This document shows, piece after piece, positions 16,616 to 45,952 of a stretch of 64,000 bases of DNA (the first letter of the stretch is position 1; each line of letters opens with the position of its first letter). The notes beneath the pieces are model-generated. The model did no database searches. It was not told where the DNA came from and saw nothing but the letters and a program-made list of their open reading frames with translations. The DNA is from Methanoculleus thermophilus (GTDB lineage Archaea > Halobacteriota > Methanomicrobia > Methanomicrobiales > Methanoculleaceae), in contig NZ_BCNX01000004.1 in the NCBI RefSeq assembly GCF_001571405.1, positions 62,001 through 126,000 on the forward strand, read 5' to 3'. The position numbers were made by a program, and so were the translations under genes.

Positions 16616-19411
16616 TCACTTCAGATGGCCGATGTAGTCGTGGAGTCTGGTCTTTGTGATGCCGGTGATCGAGGAAGCCTCATCCACGTCGGCCTCCCGC
16701 AGTGTTGCGGCGTCATATATGCCTGCAAGGTAGAGTTTCTCCACGGTCGCCTCCCCGATCCCGGGGATCTCCAGGAGCTCTTTTCGCCCGCGCTCAAGGG
16801 CGGCCTTGGTGACTTTCGGCGGGGTGGGGCGTCCAAGGCGCCTGCAGACCATATCCACATGTTTATGTACGGTCTCCGGATTAATGCCGGTTTTGCTTGC
16901 AAGGTATGGGATAGGGAGGTAGCAGAGGTCATCGGGTGTTGCAACACCACCGGCCTGGTATTTCTTCAGGCTGACCGCGGGGATCCCGGCCTCCCGAAGT
17001 GCGCGCTCGTTGCAGAGGCCGCGCGCTGCCTCAAGGAGCTCCGTAGCCGCCGCTTCAGGGATTCCGGCCTTCTTGAGCGCGGCAGGGTCGGCCCCGGAGA
17101 GCGCGCGGATATCCCCGATCCCCTGCTCGAGAAGGCTCTGCATGATCTTTGCATGGCTCCGGCCCTTCCTCGGCGGCACGATCTTTCTGATGAACTTTCG
17201 AAGTTCCGATCGGTGTCGAAGGATCTCGAGTGCATCTTTCGCCTCCTCTATGAGCCGATCGGCCTCGTTTTCGCCGACAGCAATAGCCTCCATGAGATCT
17301 TTTGGCCGCATGCCGGCGATCTCGGAGACTGTGTAGATGTGGCGCGCATGGAGGCGCTCAATGAGATCATCGGTCATCGAGGGCATCATCCGGAGCGCCT
17401 CAAGGTTTGAGGTAATGTGGCTGCAGAGCGGGCAGCCGAGATCCCATGGGCGAGATCCCTTCTGGATCAGGCGGACGTGGGCGAGCCCGTGTTTCTCACA
17501 GGTATCTTCGAGCCGGATTGCCCGTCCCCAGGTGCTGCCGGGTAGGCTGATGTTGAACCGGCACTCCGGATAGCCGGTGCAGCCTATAAACTGCGAGACA
17601 CCCAGATGCCGGATCCGGAGTTCGTGCCCGCAGACCGGGCAGAGACCGACGGTATGTTCCTCTGCGGTCTGCTCCATGATCTCGCTGCCGATCTCCTCCT
17701 CGTGCGCCTCGAGCTTGTCAAAGACTTTATGGAGCATCTTGCGCGACTCTGCGATGACGTCGTCGCGGGTACGCTCACGCTGCTTGATGAGCTGCATATG
17801 CTCTTCAAGCGTCCGGGTCATCTCGGGCTCGGTGATCATCTCCGCGTGGTTGTCGAGAGCGTCCGTGACGGCTCTCCCGACGAGAGTGGGTCGGAGCGGG
17901 TTCCCCTCCACATAGCGACGGGCGATGAGTTTCCCGATCACCTCATGCCGGGTGCTCTTCGTACCGAGACCGAGTTCCTCCATCACCTGGATGAGACGGC
18001 TCTGGGAGTAGCGTGCCGGAGGCTGTGTCTGCTTCTCCTCGAGGTTTACCTTCTTTATTGGGAGGCGATCTCCCTCGGCAAGCACCGGGAGGATATTCTC
18101 CTTTGCCTCAGAGTATGGATAGATCCTGCGCCATCCGGGGGAGATGAGTCGGCCGCCTGTTGCCGTGTACGGCTCTCCAGATGCATCGAAGAGGCATTTG
18201 GTAGTCACCCACTGCGCATCGGGAGAGAGGGTCGCAAGGAACCGACGGACAACGAGTTCGTAGACCTTCCATTGGTCCTGCCCTAGAGCCTCGCGGGTTG
18301 CGGCGCCCGTCGGGTGGATCGGCGGATGGTCGGTGCTCTCCTTCTTGCCCCTGGTCGGGACCGGTCGCCGGTGCTGCTGCACCCAGGCGACGTCCGCATC
18401 AAACACCCCGCCCCGGAGGGTGTTTAAGATCGCGTCCAGATTCAGCGACTTCGGGTAGACCGTGTTGTCGGTCCTCGGATAGGAGATGTAACCGTTCATG
18501 TAGAGGTCTTCGGCGATCCTCATAGCATTCGCCGCGGAGAAGCCGAGACGGCTCGCCGCGACAATGAAGGTCGTGGTGTCGAACGGTGTCGGCGCCCGAT
18601 CGTTCTTCTGACCTTCTTTTACGCTTGTGACCACAAGCGGCTCTTTTGTCCCCGCTTTCGCGGCAAGAGCCGCATCGTGGTCGGTGAACCGTCCGTTGGT
18701 ATGCCGTGCCTCCACCTGCATGCCGTCTTTTTCGGTCTCAAGCGAGAGCATCCAGTATGTCTGTGGGACGAAGTTCTCGATCTCGCGCTCCCGATCGACG
18801 ATCATCGCAAGCGTCGGGCTCTGGACCCGGCCGACGGAGAGGATGTTCTTGCCACCCCGCCGGGCCGCAAGGCTGATGAACCGGGTCAGCGACGCACCCC
18901 ACATCAGGTCGACCGTCTGGCGTGCTTCGCCGGCGGCTGCGAGGGCGAAATCAAGATCGGTTGGGTTTTCAAAGGCGGCCCGGATCTCCGCCGGGGTAAT
19001 TGCCGAGAATCGGGCCCGGTTGATCTTGACCGTCGGATTCACCGCACGGACAAGTTCGTAGGCCTCCTTGCCGATCAGTTCTCCCTCGGTATCGTAATCC
19101 GTCGCGATGGTGACGAGGTCTGCCTTCTTTGCAAGTTTCTGGATCAGGTTGACAATCTTCTTTTCAGTCGGTTTCTTGACGGTGCCCGCATCGATGAGGC
19201 TTCTGGGGGTGTGGACTTCGCTACGCCAGTTTGTGTAGCCGGGCTCGAAATCAATCTCCACCACGTGCCCTTTGAGGCCCACCACTGTCTTGGTGTCGAA
19301 GGAGTAGGTGTATACGTTCCCCTCTTTGACCGCCTTTACCTTCTCGTTGCCAGCGAGGATCTGTGCGATTCGGTTTGCTGAGATGTTCTTCTCTGCTATG
19401 ATCAGGTGCAC
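16616..19411 (-). CDS. topA: DNA topoisomerase IA, archaeal, with zinc fingers and HhH tail
   Basis: Relaxes negative supercoils by single-strand passage. The 931-residue protein opens with the Toprim domain (Glu7, and Asp105/Asp107 in DYDTEG). The catalytic tyrosine is Tyr311 in YISYPRTDNTVYP. SVGRVQSPTLAMI (192-204) is the family signature. Around residues 575-605 there is a four-cysteine zinc ribbon (CPVCGHELR ... CTGYPEC), and a second CEKH ... CPLC pair follows. The last 250 residues are a chain of helix-hairpin-helix motifs (LLEIPGIGEATVEKLY and similar), extending well beyond the bacterial enzyme and probably adding DNA affinity. No helicase domain is fused, so it is not reverse gyrase. 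Confidence 0.95.
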   Translation of the reverse strand: MHLIIAEKNISANRIAQILAGNEKVKAVKEGNVYTYSFDTKTVVGLKGHVVEIDFEPGYTNWRSEVHTPRSLIDAGTVKKPTEKKIVNLIQKLAKKADLVTIATDYDTEGELIGKEAYELVRAVNPTVKINRARFSAITPAEIRAAFENPTDLDFALAAAGEARQTVDLMWGASLTRFISLAARRGGKNILSVGRVQSPTLAMIVDREREIENFVPQTYWMLSLETEKDGMQVEARHTNGRFTDHDAALAAKAGTKEPLVVTSVKEGQKNDRAPTPFDTTTFIVAASRLGFSAANAMRIAEDLYMNGYISYPRTDNTVYPKSLNLDAILNTLRGGVFDADVAWVQQHRRPVPTRGKKESTDHPPIHPTGAATREALGQDQWKVYELVVRRFLATLSPDAQWVTTKCLFDASGEPYTATGGRLISPGWRRIYPYSEAKENILPVLAEGDRLPIKKVNLEEKQTQPPARYSQSRLIQVMEELGLGTKSTRHEVIGKLIARRYVEGNPLRPTLVGRAVTDALDNHAEMITEPEMTRTLEEHMQLIKQRERTRDDVIAESRKMLHKVFDKLEAHEEEIGSEIMEQTAEEHTVGLCPVCGHELRIRHLGVSQFIGCTGYPECRFNISLPGSTWGRAIRLEDTCEKHGLAHVRLIQKGSRPWDLGCPLCSHITSNLEALRMMPSMTDDLIERLHARHIYTVSEIAGMRPKDLMEAIAVGENEADRLIEEAKDALEILRHRSELRKFIRKIVPPRKGRSHAKIMQSLLEQGIGDIRALSGADPAALKKAGIPEAAATELLEAARGLCNERALREAGIPAVSLKKYQAGGVATPDDLCYLPIPYLASKTGINPETVHKHVDMVCRRLGRPTPPKVTKAALERGRKELLEIPGIGEATVEKLYLAGIYDAATLREADVDEASSITGITKTRLHDYIGHLK

Positions 19412-19417
19412 TGCGGA

Positions 19418-20833
19418 TTACACCTCGCTTTTATCAATACACTCGGCTACGATGCGCCCAAGTTCCCGCGGGTCTGCCCGTCCACGGGTCTCCTTCATCA
19501 CCTGGCCCACCAGGAAGTTCAGGGCGCCCTTCTTGCCGGCCCGGTAGTCACTCACTGCCTGGGGGTTTGCAGCGAGCACAGCCTGCACGATGGCGGTAAA
19601 TTCGTCTCCAGCAGCCTTTGCCAGGTTTTCACGCTTAACGATCGTTGCAGGCGCTTCACAGGGCTTTCCTGCGGCGCAGGCATTGAGCATCTCTCTGAGG
19701 ACCTGGACCCCGGCCTTGTCGGTGATCGTCCCCGACCGGAGAAGCGCGAGGAGTTCCATGAAACGCTCGGGCGGGACGGCGGATATGCTCATATCACGGT
19801 AGTTGAGTTCCCCGAGGAGGATATCGGCCACCCAGGTAGCGGAGAGGATCGGGTCCACGGGTGCGACATGTTCGTAGAAATCGGCGAGTTTCGGGTCGCC
19901 GGTCAGGGTTCGGGCATGGTTGAGTGATATACCGTACTGCTCCATGAACCGGTTCTTTCGTGCAGTGGGCAGTTCGGGAAGTTTGATCTTTTCCATCCAG
20001 TCCGCGACGCGGAGCGGCTGGAGATCGGGCTCCGGGAAGTAGCGGTAATCGTACTCCTCCTCTTTGCCGCGAGCGGAGGTGGTGATCCCGCGCCCTTCCA
20101 TGAAGTGCCGGGTCTCCCTCACAACTTTCTGTCCACGCCGGAGCAGGTTCTTCTGCCGGGTCACCTCGAAGGTGAGGGCCTTCTCGACGCCTTTGTAGGA
20201 GGAGATGTTCTTGACCTCAACCCGTTCGGAGCCTTCAAGTGAGATGTTTGCATCCACACGGAGAGCACCTTCCCGATCGCCGTCAAAGACCCCGAGATAC
20301 TCGAGGATTGCCCTGAGTTTGTTGAGGAACCGGCGAGCTTCCTGTGGTGACCGCAGATCCGGCTCGGTGACGATCTCAAGAAGCGGGATACCAGACCGGT
20401 TATAATCGACGAGCGAGTACTTCGAGGATCCCGTGACGTGGACGAGTCTTCCGGGATCCTCTTCGAGGTGAACCCGGGTGATCCGGACGATCTTCTCGTG
20501 CCCTTCGTCGTCCTCGATCTCGACGGTCCCCTCGACAGCGAGCGGTTTGTCGTACTGGGTGATCTGGTAGGCCTTTGGGAGGTCCGGGTAGAAGTAATTC
20601 TTCCGGGCAAACTCCGAGACTTCAGGAACTTTCATGTTGAGGGCTTTTGCGACGGAGAGACCATACTCGACCGCCTTCCTGTTTAAGCGGGGAAGCGCAC
20701 CGGGTAGCCCGAGACAGATCGGGCAGCAGTGAGTGTTCGGCTCGTCGTCACGGTAGTCCGTCGAGCACCCGCAGAAGAGCTTCGTTGCGGTCGAGAGCTG
20801 GACGTGGATCTCAAGCCCGATGATCGTCTTCAT
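19418..20833 (-). CDS. gatB: aspartyl/glutamyl-tRNA amidotransferase subunit B
   Basis: Kinase-like subunit that activates mischarged Asp-tRNA(Asn) or Glu-tRNA(Gln) with ATP and accepts ammonia from GatA. The 471-residue length is standard. The N-terminal GLEIHVQL, the zinc-binding cysteines (FCGCSTDY ... [14 protein letters not shown]), [15 protein letters not shown] and the RYFPEPDL segment identify it, and the C-terminal tail domain ends with the [19 protein letters not shown] motif. Start and gatA stop overlap by four bases. In archaea GatDE serves Gln, so GatCAB most likely makes Asn-tRNA. Confidence 0.96.
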
Positions 20834-22131
20834 GCCCGCACCTCCTGTTCGTAGGCATACGCGGTATCGACGACGCGCTCGTCCTCAAACTGCCTCCCCA
20901 TAATCTGGAGCCCCACAGGTAGGCCGTCCACCTTGCCGCACGGAACCGATATCGCCGGGATTCCGGCGAGGTTTGCGGGCACCGTGAGGATATCCGAGAG
21001 GTACATCGAGAGCGGGTCGGTCTTCTCGCCGAGGCGGAAGGCCACGGTCGGCATCGTGGGTCCGGCGATGACATCGACCTCGCGGAAGGCCCGCTCGAAG
21101 TCATCTCTGATGTTTCGGCGGGCGATTTGCGCTTTTGCGTAGTATCGGCCGGCGTAGCCTGCAGAGAGCGCAAAGGTGCCGAGCATGATCCTGCGCCGGA
21201 CCTCGGCCCCGAACAACTTCCCCCGCAGGTCCTGGTAGGCCTCGTGCCAGGTCTTCCTGGTATCTACCGCCGGGCCGTAACGGACGCCGTCGAACCGGGC
21301 GAGGTTCGAGGAGGCTTCACTCGTGCAGATGACGTAGTAGGCCGCAAGCGCGTGCTGCATGCCGGGAATGCTCACCGGGACGGTCTCGGCCCCGAGCCCT
21401 TCAAGGACTCCGATCGCGTCGCGGACCGTATCTGCGATACGGGGGTCCACGCCCTCGCCGAAGTATTCTTTCGGGATCCCTATCCGGAGCCCTTTGACAT
21501 CGGCCGAAGGCTTGTGGTCATACGGGCGGTCAAGCATTGTCGAGTCGCGGGGATCGTACCGTGCGATCACCGACATCAGGCGCGATACATCCTCTACCGT
21601 CCGTGCCATCGGTCCGATCTGCTCAAGGGAGTTTGCGTAGGCAATGAGGCCGTAACGTGAGACCCGACCGTACGTGGGTTTGAGCCCTACGATCCCGCAA
21701 AACGCCGCAGGACATCGGATCGAGCCGCCGGTATCGGTGCCGAGCGCCATCGGGACGAGCCCCGCAGCCACGGCGGCGGCGCTTCCGCCGGATGACCCGC
21801 CCGGTACTCGCGTCGGGTCGACTGGATTTTTTGTGGGACCGAACGCGCTCGTCTCGGTGGTGGAGCCCATGCCGAACTCGTCCATGTTGGTCTTGCCGAC
21901 GATCGCGGCTCCTGCTTTTCTGATGAGTTCGACGACGTAGGCGTCGTACGGCGGGATGTAGCCCTCGAGAATCCGTGACCCGCAGGTAGTCTGTATACCG
22001 GCCGTGGAGATGTTGTCTTTGATCGCGACGGCAACGCCGCCGAGCACGCCATCGCCATACGGTGCCTCGCGGCAGGTGGTGATGAATGCGTTGTACCGAT
22101 CGTCCGGCGAGTAGTCAAGAATCCCCGTCAC
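20830..22131 (-). CDS. gatA: aspartyl/glutamyl-tRNA amidotransferase subunit A
   Basis: Amidase that releases ammonia from glutamine for GatB. The 433-residue protein has the amidase-signature triad: the catalytic lysine in AIKDNI near residue 34, and the Ser-rich segment [16 protein letters not shown] with the cis-Ser and nucleophile Ser, followed by [16 protein letters not shown]. It is shorter at the N-terminus than bacterial GatA, common in archaea. The gene abuts gatC with no gap (22131/22132), and overlaps gatB, as expected for a stoichiometric heterotrimer. Confidence 0.96.
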
Positions 22132-22401
22132 TCACATCACCCTCGGCGCTTTTATGAACCCATCCTCGGTAGAACCCGCGTTCGCGAGGGCATCCTGCTG
22201 TGAGAGACTTGGTCGGGGCTCATCCTCCCGAAAGACGTTGAAGATCCCGGCGGCCGGGGTGCTTTCATCGACTACGGTGTCAAGAACTTTAAAGTAGTCG
22301 AGGATTGCGTTGAACTGGGTGGTGAATTCCAGCACTTCGTCTTTTGATATGCCGATATCTGCAAGTTCTGCTATATGTTCAATATCTCTTTCAGTGATCA
22401 T
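22132..22401 (-). CDS. gatC: aspartyl/glutamyl-tRNA amidotransferase subunit C
   Basis: Small 89-residue subunit that wraps between GatA and GatB and stabilises the complex. The family pattern is seen in the N-terminal helix (DIEHIAELADIGIS), the FTTQFNAILDYFKVLDTVV stretch, and the C-terminal segment with LSQQDALANA and a final region that threads into GatA (EDGFIKAPRVM). Its first 11 bases overlap the end of the AsnB-like gene, placing that gene in the same transcript. Confidence 0.93.
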   Translation of the reverse strand: MITERDIEHIAELADIGISKDEVLEFTTQFNAILDYFKVLDTVVDESTPAAGIFNVFREDEPRPSLSQQDALANAGSTEDGFIKAPRVM

Positions 22402-23389
22402 GTTCCGCCCTACTTATCTCCGTTAAGTACCCTTGTACCGACTTTTTATAACCATTCCTACGAGCGAGCCGCTGGATAACTTTCCAGATTCCGCTCCCGT
22501 ATTGCATCGCTTTCTTCTCGGCCCAGGCCATTTCGGTGGGAATGTGGTGTTCTGCGACCACCCGCAGGGGGTGCTTTCTCACCCCGCCGCGCACCATCTC
22601 CTCGGCCGGGATCGCTCGTGCGGCGCGCACCACCCGGACATCCAGGTAGGGCAGCGAGAGGTTCGTCCCGAGAAGCGTCGCGACTGCCTGATCCCGCCTT
22701 CTCTGGCGCCCGAGATCAGCAAAGTCCCGGTCGAGGTCGCGAGCGAGGTCGAGCGAGGAGAGGTAGCGGGCATAACCGCCGAAGAGTTCGTCTGCTCCCT
22801 GCCCGGAGAGGATCCTGGTGTGCCCGTGTTCTGCTGCCCACTCAGCGGCAAAATACAGGGTCGTTGCGATTGAGACCTCGAGAGGGTTTGTGGGCTCGGG
22901 GATCACCCGGACCACCCGGTCGAGTGCCTCTGCGACTTCATTCTCTCTTGGTGTGACGATCTCAAGGTCTAGGTCCATCATCCTCGCTGCCTTTGCTGCC
23001 CAAGTCGCATCATGCGACCCTTCGACCCCCACCGTCACGCAGGGAAGACGGGCAAGCCCGGCAATGAGGGCCGAGTCGAGACCGCCGGAGAATGCCACCA
23101 CGCCTTCATCGCTCCGGAGGCTGACCGCGGTGACGATTGCCTCTTCAAGGGTGCAGGGCGCCGGATCGGGATTTATCCTGAGGATCTCGCGTCCGTTGCA
23201 GGAGATGGTTCCCGGCGGGACCGGGCCAGGGATGATCCCGAAAGCGTCGCGGGCGATGCAGTCATCCCAGGTGAGCAGGAACTCACCGCCGCACCGGGTG
23301 ATGGTCTCTGGCCCTTCTTTGAGCATCCGCTCCAGGTCGGCAGGAGAGAGCCGCATCCCGTCTTGTTCTATCCAGCCCTTCAAGTTCAT
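22391..23389 (-). CDS. asparagine synthase-related protein lacking the glutaminase nucleophile
   Basis: A 332-residue relative of asparagine synthetase B. The synthetase domain is intact: the PP-loop SGGLDS at residues 101-106 and the LSGQGADELFGGYARYL segment. The N-terminal region keeps only the end of the class II glutaminase fold (FLLTWDDCIARDAFGIIPG, about 37-55); the catalytic Cys2 and first half of that domain are missing. It could use free ammonia or ammonia from a partner, or act on another acid. Placement directly before gatC, overlapping by 11 bases, suggests a link to amide metabolism. Start choice is uncertain: ATG 23389 and ATG 23398 are close, and in-frame GTGs at 23434 and 23449 would extend it. 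Confidence 0.75.
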   Translation of the reverse strand: MNLKGWIEQDGMRLSPADLERMLKEGPETITRCGGEFLLTWDDCIARDAFGIIPGPVPPGTISCNGREILRINPDPAPCTLEEAIVTAVSLRSDEGVVAFSGGLDSALIAGLARLPCVTVGVEGSHDATWAAKAARMMDLDLEIVTPRENEVAEALDRVVRVIPEPTNPLEVSIATTLYFAAEWAAEHGHTRILSGQGADELFGGYARYLSSLDLARDLDRDFADLGRQRRRDQAVATLLGTNLSLPYLDVRVVRAARAIPAEEMVRGGVRKHPLRVVAEHHIPTEMAWAEKKAMQYGSGIWKVIQRLARRNGYKKSVQGYLTEISRAEHDH

Positions 23390-23998
23390 GGTCGGCATAT
23401 TCCGTAATCCAGCAGTTCTTGCCGTGAGGTTCACGCGGTGCGTGGTCACCTCAAAAAACGGATCCGTGTCAGTGTTTGCACTGTTGAACTATAAATGTGC
23501 GTACATCTGCCTAGGCGAAATGCTGGCGGTTTTTTGGGTTTCTGTCTAGATCTGTCATCCCCGGGCGGAGATGGCGACCCTGACCGGACGCAGCGTCATC
23601 TTGGCGTGTGATCTTGCCGCCTCTCTACGTCTTTGGTATCGAGGTGGTCGGGACGCAGTGCGTAACCGGTGCGTAATCCGGGAAATATCCACATCATCCG
23701 GGTTTTTGGTTCCCATAGCGACTCAATGTCGCAATTCCGGCCGCTACGATTTGGGGGTAGTCCTCGAACTCCTCTACCGGGAAGGGGGACACCCGGTCAC
23801 ACCTAACGGGTGCTACGGATGAAGGCTTGTCCCCATTTTGGGAGTGTTGAGCTCTCCTTGGCTTATTAAATGGGTTATATCGGCGCCGTCTGTGCCGCGC
23901 CGGTGGGAAAAAAGTGTGGTGCAGGAACTATTTGCGGTGATGGCCGTCGTTGCTGGCAAACGGGCGGGATGCGCCGCCGCACCCCACCCAAACTCCCT
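23390..23998. other. 609-base intergenic region upstream of the AsnB-gat-topA run
   Basis: No gene is supported; the few frames present have no family resemblance. It separates two minus-strand genes, so it should hold the promoter of the eight-gene run at its left end (an A/T element ACTATAAAT near 23489-23497 is a candidate) and the purB terminator at its right end. Confidence 0.4.
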
Positions 23999-25339
23999 TT
24001 ACCTGCAGAGCGGCGTGAGTTTCTTGATTAACCGCTCCACCTGCTGGACCGCAGTCCCTATATATGCATCCGGACTCAGGAGAGCCTTCAGGTCCTCGCG
24101 GGTGACGAATGCCGTGACCTCGGGCCGCTCACCGAGCACCTCGGCGAGATCGCGGTCTTCGGCGAGGGCCTGCAGGCTCGCCGTCCGCATTACCTCGTGA
24201 GCATCCTGCCGGTTCATGCCCCGCTTGGTGAGCTCGATCATCACCGACTCGGCAAGGTTCACGCCCCGGAGCAACATCAGGTTCCTCCTGATATTCTCCT
24301 TATTGAATTCAAGCCCCTCCAGTACGCCGATCATCACCTTGAGGATATGGTCGGTCAGCACCGAGGCTTCGGGGAAGAGCACCCGCTCGGGGGAGGAGTT
24401 TGTCAGGTCGCGCTCGTCCCAGAGTACGTTGTTTAACAGAGCCGGTTCAACCGAGGATCGCACAATTCGGGCAAGGCCGCAGACCTGCTCGCTCTTGATC
24501 GGGTTTCTCTTGTGGGGCATCGTGCTCGAGCCCACCTGCTTCTTGCCGAACGCCTCGGCAAGCTCCCCTATCTCGGAGCGCTGCATCAGACGGATCTCTA
24601 GCCCGATCTTGTCAAGCGTGGTCGCGACGTTTGCAAGGAACATGAAGTACTCCGCGTAGCGGTCCCGCGCTATAATCTGGTTAGAGACGTCCACCGGCTG
24701 GAGCCCGAGAAACTCCATCATCGTCTCCTGGACTGCTATGCCCGCTTCTCCGAGCGCTGCCTGGGTGCCCACCGCTCCCGTGAGCTGCCCGACGAGGAGG
24801 CGGGGGCGCATCTGGCGGAGTCGTTCGATGTGCCGGGAGACCTCGCTTGCCCAGATCGCGAACCGGAGGCCGTAGGTCGTGGGAACCCCGATCTGCCCAT
24901 GTGTCCGCCCGGCGCAGACGAGGTTCTTCGTCTCCGCACTCCGGGCGAGAAGCACGCAGAGGAGTTTGCCGAGTTTCTCCTCGATGAGCGCGAGGCTATC
25001 GCGGAGCTGCAATGCGGTCGCCGTATCCAGGATATCGTTCGATGTTGCCCCGTAGTGGATCCATCGCCCGGCATCGCCGCAGACCTCTGTGACGGCTTTG
25101 ACGATCGCCATCATATCGTGGTTGATCTCGGCCTCGATCTCCTTCGCCCTCTCTAGACTTGCCTTGCCTGCGCAGGCCGCAATCGTCTCGGCATCCTCGC
25201 GCGGAATGAGCCCGTGCACCGCTTCAGCCCGGGCCAGCGCCACTTCGGCCATGACGATCGCCCGGAACCGGTTCTCCTCACTCCAGACGGCACGCATCTC
25301 GGGAGTGCCGTACCGGTAGTCAATAGGATGGATTGCCAT
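23999..25339 (-). CDS. purB: adenylosuccinate lyase
   Basis: Cleaves fumarate from SAICAR and from adenylosuccinate in purine synthesis. The 446-residue protein shows the fumarase/aspartase superfamily motifs: IHYGATSNDILDTA with the catalytic His and substrate-binding Thr-Ser, AGRTHGQIGVPTTYG, and the signature GSSTMPHKRNPIKSE with the catalytic serine loop. The C-terminal helical domain is complete. It is apparently monocistronic. A T-rich element around 25366-25373 (minus strand TTTTTTAA) lies about 30 bases before the ATG and can serve as TATA box. Confidence 0.97.
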   Translation of the reverse strand: MAIHPIDYRYGTPEMRAVWSEENRFRAIVMAEVALARAEAVHGLIPREDAETIAACAGKASLERAKEIEAEINHDMMAIVKAVTEVCGDAGRWIHYGATSNDILDTATALQLRDSLALIEEKLGKLLCVLLARSAETKNLVCAGRTHGQIGVPTTYGLRFAIWASEVSRHIERLRQMRPRLLVGQLTGAVGTQAALGEAGIAVQETMMEFLGLQPVDVSNQIIARDRYAEYFMFLANVATTLDKIGLEIRLMQRSEIGELAEAFGKKQVGSSTMPHKRNPIKSEQVCGLARIVRSSVEPALLNNVLWDERDLTNSSPERVLFPEASVLTDHILKVMIGVLEGLEFNKENIRRNLMLLRGVNLAESVMIELTKRGMNRQDAHEVMRTASLQALAEDRDLAEVLGERPEVTAFVTREDLKALLSPDAYIGTAVQQVERLIKKLTPLCR

Positions 25340-45054: not shown

Positions 45055-45160
45055 TGTTCAACTCAACTGTACTTTTATTGTCGGTTTTTAACATAGTGGT
45101 TTGGATATCGATCCAAAAAATTAAGTGTTTGAATGTCAGAAACTGCAGGGTAACTTTAGT

Positions 45161-45233
45161 GGGCCCGTAGCATAGCTGGTGGTGCACCCGGCTGATAACC
45201 GGGAGGTCGTGCGTTCGAATCGCATCGGGCCCA
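45161..45233 (+). tRNA. tRNA-Ile (anticodon GAT), copy 1
   Basis: Acceptor stem GGGCCCG/CGGGCCC pairs 45161-45167 with 45226-45232 and discriminator A is 45233. Anticodon stem CCCGG/CCGGG (45187-45191/45199-45203) presents GAT at 45194-45196. CCA is not encoded. An A/T-rich element AAAAAATTAAG about 45 bases upstream can serve as promoter. Confidence 0.95.
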
Positions 45234-45434
45234 TCATCTTTTCCGTATTTCTGCAGGGCTAGAGTGTGCGGTCTCATCCTGGCGCCGGGATCCCCATGTT
45301 GGCGGCTTGTTGCTACGGTATCTTCCGCGTGCTCGCCGCGGATCCCTGATATTGGACAATTCAGGAATAGAACTTAGCGCAACCTTTAAGGGGGTTGTAA
45401 TACAACATTTGTAGGCACTAATACGAGTGCATTT

Positions 45435-45507
45435 GGGCCCGTAGCATAGCCGGTGGTGCACCCGGCTGATAACCGGGAGGTCGTGCGTTCGAATCGCATC
45501 GGGCCCA
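45435..45507 (+). tRNA. tRNA-Ile (anticodon GAT), copy 2
   Basis: A second copy with anticodon GAT at 45468-45470, identical to copy 1 except C at 45451 where copy 1 has T at 45177 in the D loop. Upstream and downstream sequences of the two copies are unrelated; a CTTTAAGG element near 45384-45391 may be its own promoter, and a T5 run follows the 3' end. Confidence 0.95.
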
Positions 45508-45952
45508 CTGTTCTTTTTCAGTAGTTCTCCTCTGCGGTAAACTCTTTGAGGCTCCATCGTTGCTTTTTTTCGCGAAAACGAGGTCATTCAATATCTTGCT
45601 GTCGCCTGCGGTAGACGAGGTGCTCAAGCGCGATGACCGTGACGGTGCCCACCCAATGCCGCTTGTGATCAGAGATGAGAACCGGGGGCATACTCACCAC
45701 CAGCCACTGCAGACCGAAGATGAGGCGGTGTGCCGATCCGGGCCGGTTGTCGATACCACAAGATGATCTATCATAAGGATCCCGTGCAGAGCCACAGATT
45801 CTACCGCCCACACAAAATCTATTCCTTTTGCGATTGAGAGGTACTCCCATGGTTTGTAACGGTCATGCGGGAGAATCTTCCCGCATAACCTCTGATATCT
45901 CCTATCTTCCCTCTCGCCCCCGCGTCGCGGGGGGCACAAGGGGGCGGCAGGT
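45508..45952. other. 445-base region after tRNA-Ile with decayed coding remnants
   Basis: No intact gene. On the minus strand two overlapping open frames (45584-45850 and 45694-45939) include a stretch that resembles the end of a RadC/JAB protein, described separately. The right end holds a GC-rich hairpin (CCCCCGCGTCGCGGGGG near 45917) before the ABC transporter start. Confidence 0.4.
45694..45939 (-). pseudogene. possible remnant of a RadC/JAB-domain protein
   Basis: An 81-codon minus-strand frame. Its residues around 35-68 (GIDFVWAVESVALHGILMID then HLVVS) follow the end of RadC-type proteins, where a Ser-x-x-Asp-Ile helix leads to a Leu-Gly-Ile-x-x-x-Asp-His-hydrophobic strand. The diagnostic HxHPSG metal site that should precede it is not present (HDRYKP is found instead), and the N-terminal helix-hairpin-helix part is missing. 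If real, it is a decayed fragment. The similarity is short and could be chance. Confidence 0.3.

Follow-up and report, generated by a model that had tools for sequence, protein, structure and literature searches.

A gene that Pfam names asparagine synthase is nearly universal in a large order of methanogens even though it lacks the glutamine half of that enzyme. At the place of Glu364 the family has a substitution that abolishes activity in the human enzyme, and in several archaeal lineages the gene travels with the genes for tRNA amidation. What, then, does its product make, and from what? The question is taken up here for a 64,000-nucleotide stretch of the Methanoculleus thermophilus genome (the window), in which the gene lies directly ahead of gatC.

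Gene, operon and predicted fold

The features of the locus, with the support for each, are as follows.

22391..23389, minus strand: predicted AsnB-like amidoligase without glutaminase, 332 aa (ORF, Pfam, alignment, AlphaFold2 model)
23165..23389, minus strand: aa 1–75, what remains of the class II glutaminase domain (its second half), boundary approximate (29-sequence alignment and 1ct9 superposition)
23072..23089, minus strand: PP-loop SGGLDS, aa 101–106 (translation and locus sequences)
22772..22804, minus strand: GQGADELFGGY, aa 196–206, with Gln197 aligned to AsnB Glu348 and human ASNS Glu364
22496..22516, minus strand: KKAMQYG, aa 292–298, catalytic Lys position (K449/K466) (aligned sequences)
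22391..22401, minus strand: 11-nt overlap of the AsnB-like gene end with the gatC start (ORF list)
22132..22401, minus strand: gatC (PF02686 and TIGR00135 above cut-off)
20830..22131, minus strand: gatA (TIGR00132, 591 bits)
19418..20833, minus strand: gatB (TIGR00133/NF004012 above cut-off)
16616..19411, minus strand: topA-like ORF that continues the run after gatB (ORF; presumed name)
23999..25339, minus strand: purB, upstream on the same strand (TIGR00928, 529 bits)

The window order on the minus strand is thus AsnB-like gene, gatC, gatA, gatB and a long ORF that we take to be topA. A topA-like ORF stands 3’ of gatB in most loci that extend far enough to include that position, and purB is close to the AsnB-like gene in some relatives only. 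The AsnB-like ORF codes for 332 residues plus a stop from an ATG start. Its longest open frame runs from a GTG at 23449 (352 residues), but conservation among relatives starts at the MNLKGW of the ATG and not at the upstream GTG. The 11-base overlap with gatC reported by an earlier sequence-only reading of this DNA is confirmed at 22391–22401, and the AsnB-like protein and GatC are probably translated together, from the run AS-gatC-gatA-gatB-topA.

Pfam identifies a single domain in the 332-residue protein, PF00733 Asn_synthase (5e-36; 125.5 bits, where 21 is the cut-off), with neither a GATase_6 nor a GATase_7 match; GATase_7 scores over its cut-off in the full-length relatives L131, L134, L156 and L221. 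Against TIGR01536, the asparagine synthetase equivalog, the protein reaches 107.7 bits, below the threshold of 267.1. An asparagine synthetase A identity finds no match either, as PRK06462 is absent from the protein’s NCBIfam matches and PF00733 stands alone in Pfam.

An AlphaFold2 model built from an alignment of 29 sequences (pLDDT 94.3, pTM 0.91) has E. coli AsnB and human ASNS as its closest folds and, with the above-threshold PF00733 score, places the protein in that superfamily. The model superposes on residues 71–507 of AsnB (1ct9; Z 32.5, 325 residues, 3.1 Å) and on human ASNS (6gq3) with Z 30.2, each over ~320 residues. Since the alignment begins only at 1ct9 residue 71, the Cys nucleophile is missing together with the front half of the glutaminase domain (~70 residues); the protein starts at about AsnB residue 71, has no N-terminal Cys, and its class II glutaminase is incomplete. 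This agrees with the sequence-only reading, which had described both that loss and an intact PP-loop and synthetase domain, here borne out by SGGLDS, the PF00733 score and the Lys motif. In the model, the second glutaminase half is retained as a folded piece. It carries GWxExxG, GGEF and ARDxxGI motifs, and Gly5, Trp6, Glu8, Gly11, Gly35-Glu36-Phe37 and Asp48 are invariant in the 29 sequences.

Thus, the window protein resembles AsnB and ASNS in synthetase fold, PP-loop and Lys motif, but differs from them in the missing Cys2 and first glutaminase half, in its sub-threshold TIGR01536 score, in having Gln at both the Glu348/364 and Asp384/400 places, and in the extra Lys and Gln of KKAMQ. Beta-lactam and carbapenam synthetases share its fold (Z 29.9 and 26.2), and their N-terminal domain has no glutaminase activity. 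Beta-lactam synthetase has Tyr at the Glu348 place, reading GYGAD in 1jgt where the window protein reads GQGADE, and the gene context differs.

Conservation and gene neighborhood

The gene matches at E≤0.001 in 141 of 150 sampled genomes of the order (Methanomicrobiales), and in 107 of the 108 that are at least 90% complete; one match in that tally, in G082, is weak (7.2e-6) and is probably another protein. Compared with two congeneric genomes, the gene gives NG86 dN/dS values of 0.12/0.69 and 0.20/0.86, a ratio of ~0.2, and 49 columns are invariant among the 29 diverse aligned sequences. The AsnB-like gene is real and under selection. It has nonetheless been lost: no match is present in G023, a 98% complete genome with an intact gatCAB-topA run (L147), nor in several Methanotrichaceae genomes, including the single-contig G208. 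These clear losses indicate that the product is dispensable. A frameshift at about codon 274 of the gene in G034 (L093), also a single-contig genome, reflects either a sequencing error or a recent loss. Recoding was considered for ten genomes of one family with in-frame stops (nine TGA, one TAG) and was rejected; in the six of these that were inspected, the stop is the natural one, just ahead of the alignment end.

Linkage was assessed in 60 loci picked from the 141 matching genomes to cover six families of the order. In 44 of the 60, gatC comes next on the same strand, starting no more than 40 nt on, and exactly the 11-nt overlap recurs in 18. A further nine have gatC 222 to 2159 nt away, G034 being in this class because its frameshift cuts the AS frame short. 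The remaining seven, six Methanocorpusculum-type loci and L050, have no gatC in the locus; in the one Methanocorpusculum-type genome examined for it (L148), gatC-gatA-gatB-topA lie together, elsewhere from the AS gene.

The same arrangement occurs outside the order, in Methanocella (L131, L132, L137 and L138, the AS domain of L137 being identical to that of the named L216), in Met33H (L157/L231), in L136 and in L154/L161/L226. An ANME-2 contig (L235) has a 140 nt gap between the AS gene and a GatC match, and an unclassified archaeon (L243) has the arrangement with GatA and GatB matches. Three of nine grouped haloarchaeal loci (L151, L158, L247) have gatC ~1.9 to 3.3 kb downstream, and the Methanotrichaceae copies sit apart from gatCAB.

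Clustering of flanking ORFs of at least 70 aa across 16 groups of loci gives a similar picture. The AsnB-like family itself recurs in all 16, followed by gatA in nine (eight distinct lineages, L154 and L226 being one), gatC in seven, gatB in six, purB and an ABC ATPase in five each, topA in four, and the other clusters shown in three. Groups without gatCAB linkage mostly show no neighbor in common. The AS gene overlaps glyS in two of three Thermoplasmata loci; in L238:2630-4348 and L241:3391-5034, the first 21–40 nt of the synthetase-only AS frame are shared with glyS. By eye, the next gene upstream is CBS-domain-like in both.

The linkage with gatCAB is therefore strong yet not obligatory. 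The conserved linkage with gatC that the sequence-only reading proposed to look for holds in most of the order, in Methanocella and in other archaea, and does not extend to Methanocorpusculum-type genomes, Methanotrichaceae, or the Thermoplasmata and Thermococci genomes searched. Among the papers listed by searches of the open-licence literature, none deals with this gene beside gatCAB.

Active site and the wider family

Residues were compared in 89 locus sequences, representing 82 genomes of which seven are counted twice, and in 84 aligned rows of the wider family, some of them identical. The PP-loop reads SGG[VL]DS in all 89 locus sequences, consistent with SGGxDS. The catalytic Lys is accounted for by the KK at 292–293, although HMMER and MAFFT differ by one position on which of the two aligns to K449/K466. 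KKAMQ is present in 86 of the 89, and its second Lys and Gln are absent from 19 compared AsnB paralogs. The Glu348/Glu364 place, in contrast, is not Glu: it is Gln in 88 locus sequences and His in one, and Gln in 83/84 rows of the wider family. The Asp384/Asp400 place is Gln in all 29 aligned sequences, and across the family is Gln or Asn in 77/84 rows and Asp in four. Two aspartate-pocket residues, Asp367 and Glu368, are retained in every one of the 84 rows.

How the Glu364 change should be read depends on two comparisons. In PMC6748925, the E364Q and E364A variants of human ASNS show no activity when given aspartate, ATP and ammonium. Among related archaea, full-length AsnB paralogs (L281-L300; 20 taken, one without a readable frame) carry Gln at the same place in 19/19 cases. 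The Gln was accordingly rejected as a mark of the family, and by itself it does not exclude asparagine synthesis. Gln may be tolerated at this place, or the AsnB paralogs may likewise not be asparagine synthetases.

A profile search of contigs with the alignment as query, from which the best 80 of 473 matches were retained, finds KKAxQY and GQGADE relatives in Thermococci, Thermoplasmata, Archaeoglobi, haloarchaea, Methanosarcina, Methanoperedens, an Asgard contig and Methanomicrobiales. Their N-termini vary widely. A full glutaminase with Cys2 is present in Methanocella, Methanosarcina, Methanoperedens and Asgard, and to this set belong the Thermococci members, which start MCLI; in one clade Ser replaces Cys2; a partial glutaminase domain is found in Methanomicrobiales, Methanotrichaceae, haloarchaea and Archaeoglobi; and the synthetase stands alone in Thermoplasmata, ANME-2 and others. 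On a tree of 85 rows (79 different, L243 left out), the distribution of Cys2 takes five changes (4–6 over bootstrap trees), of which well-supported branches force just two, suggesting that Cys2 was lost repeatedly. Such losses, together with the erosion of the domain, would mean that the family often manages without glutamine hydrolysis.

Methanotrichaceae and Methanomicrobiales copies form one clade (100/99) apart from Methanosarcina, and most Methanotrichaceae copies (loci L139-L146, L183 and L188, without gatCAB) group inside that Methanomicrobiales clade (97/88). This suggests gene transfer between the two, in either direction, as the base of the clade is not resolved.

PMC3541065 describes a fusion of DUF71/Dph6 with an archaeal AsnB-like protein (COG0367). 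One example was encountered here, L156:4309-6513 (G151), in which a Cys2-bearing AS-like protein is joined to the diphthamide-synthase domain (PF01902 + PF00733 + GATase_7) and has GSGADE for GQGADE. It has the same kind of PP-loop domain as the window protein, which unlike the fusion has neither glutaminase nor Dph6 domain.

Candidate activities

The explanation that we prefer, with about even confidence, is that the gene encodes a working archaeal AsnB-type PP-loop ligase without glutaminase that is ammonia-dependent, adenylating and tied to translation, and whose substrate is probably not free aspartate. ATP would bind on the PP-loop, a carboxylate would be adenylated to an acyl-AMP, and the acyl-AMP would react with attacking free ammonia to yield an amide. 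Free ammonia is the proposed donor because the protein cannot hydrolyse glutamine itself, a choice that agrees with the recurrent loss of glutaminase parts in the family. The carboxylate would more probably belong to part of the translation apparatus or to another non-aspartate acid than to free aspartate, and the conserved half domain may act as a scaffold or binding surface. The GatCAB and GlyRS neighbors and the Dph6-type fusion in L156 point to translation. The Gln residues at the Glu364 and Asp400 places, and two genomes that also have asparagine synthetase A, would favor a non-aspartate substrate. Counting against this explanation are the 19 paralogs that share the first Gln, the retained Asp367 and Glu368, the four rows with Asp at the Asp400 place, the recurrence of purB and the ABC ATPase as neighbors, and the gene losses. 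Any substrate other than aspartate would mean that many annotations are mistaken and that an archaeal amidation step is still to be found.

The principal alternative is that the enzyme is an ammonia-dependent asparagine synthetase, converting aspartate, ATP and ammonia to free asparagine beside the genes for Asn-tRNA. Its PF00733 domain and nearest folds are as expected, it retains the Asp367/Glu368 equivalents, and paralogs that score as AsnB carry the same Gln. The genome offers no obvious substitute: no second strong PF00733 gene is found (the four weak matches elsewhere score 22 to 25 bits), so the separate complete asnB that the sequence-only reading had proposed to look for is not found here, and neither is AsnA (PF03590). 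The PF00152 proteins found are one LysRS-like, named by size and sequence, and one AspRS-like, with no third protein of the AS-AR kind.

No AsnRS is found in the M. thermophilus genome, and its AspRS scores as aspartate--tRNA(Asn) ligase (TIGR00458), a non-discriminating family; a GatB and a GatE-size match are also present. Asn-tRNA would then be expected to arise from Asp-tRNA through GatCAB, as is established for this pathway, with no use of free Asn. With a non-discriminating AspRS and no AsnRS found, protein synthesis should need no free asparagine. GatB-family matches occur in all 77 panel genomes, and 23 of the 50 panel Methanomicrobiales encode, besides the short gene, a full-length AsnB that scores above the TIGR01536 cut-off. 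The loss of ammonia activity in human ASNS on Glu364 to Gln (PMC6748925) also argues against this alternative.

Genomes with AsnRS extend the argument. AsnRS is present in the Thermoplasmata genomes of L224, L238 and L241 and in the Thermococcales genome of L218, and the genomes of L238 and L241 (G448 and G449) have asparagine synthetase A beside the AsnB-like family, which counts against the asparagine reading. The idea that a Cys-less AS is the only asparagine source in AsnRS-using Thermoplasmata fails on the same two genomes. In all five family-bearing Thermoplasmata and Thermococci genomes, whose completeness is not stated, GatB-size matches are absent and only GatE-size matches are found. 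Since the family is kept in AsnRS genomes with only GatE-size matches, its job seems independent of the Asn-tRNA route. A ~325-aa PF00152 match occurs in the genome of L218, and a ~320-aa match in G447 is in pieces. Of the two options in the sequence-only reading, free asparagine supply is the weaker, possible but doubtful given the missing AsnRS and the two Gln substitutions; action on another carboxyl group is favored, as a proposal from sequence comparison.

A special case of our preferred explanation would make the protein a wobble-uridine enzyme, converting Elp3-made cm5U34 to ncm5U, which it might then take further to the nitrile cnm5U, in the manner of QueC on its own substrate. QueC is a PP-loop ligase that takes a carboxylate through an amide to a nitrile with free ammonia. 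PMC6412123 (2019), PMC7694415 (2020) and PMC11696611 (2025) call the enzyme for cm5U to ncm5U unknown, and PMC7694415, a review, says the same for cnm5U. The review reports cnm5U in haloarchaea, M. maripaludis and M. jannaschii, and PMC11323500 reports it in T. kodakarensis. The family is present in haloarchaea and Thermococcus, and PF00733, at Pfam level only, is found in M. jannaschii and not in the control S. acidocaldarius. The tRNA-charging genes among the neighbors and the existence of the diphthamide-synthase-domain fusion are also compatible with this role. Elp3 itself scores above cut-off in 41/41 genomes with the gene and in 30/32 without it, both misses being fragmented assemblies; as Elp3 is nearly universal, its co-occurrence with the gene says almost nothing. 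No elp3 neighborhood recurs among the clusters shown for the 16 groups, and no RNA-binding part was identified in the protein. We regard this role as unlikely, but if correct it would answer the question of the ncm5U and cnm5U enzyme.

A broader form of the same idea is more speculative still. The whole family would be the missing wobble-uridine amidoligase (cm5U34 to ncm5U, in archaea on to cnm5U), working by adenylation as in QueC and using free ammonia. Its place in the gatCAB operon would then come from the part that both play in amidating tRNA, and in eukaryotes the counterpart would be ASNSD1/YML096W. Eukaryotic ASNSD1 and yeast YML096W are AS-like proteins of unknown function that exist beside true ASNS; their likeness to the window protein is one of general description.

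It is improbable that the protein is an accessory subunit of GatCAB drawing ammonia from GatA. The conserved gene order in Methanomicrobiales, Methanocella, Met33H, the ANME-2 contig and others would suit such a subunit, but the Methanocorpusculum-type and Methanotrichaceae copies are unlinked, and the Methanocella copy is linked yet retains Cys2. Moreover, three Thermoplasmata members have no glutaminase in genomes (completeness not stated) with GatE-size matches only; because these lost the glutaminase without a detectable GatCAB, GatA is an unlikely ammonia donor. That the gene is a decaying relic without function, as half a glutaminase and the frameshifted G034 copy might suggest, is scarcely credible given its dN/dS, its invariant columns and its near-universal presence in the order.

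Elsewhere in the window, at 45160–45508, two tRNA-Ile(GAT) genes are predicted 200 nt apart.
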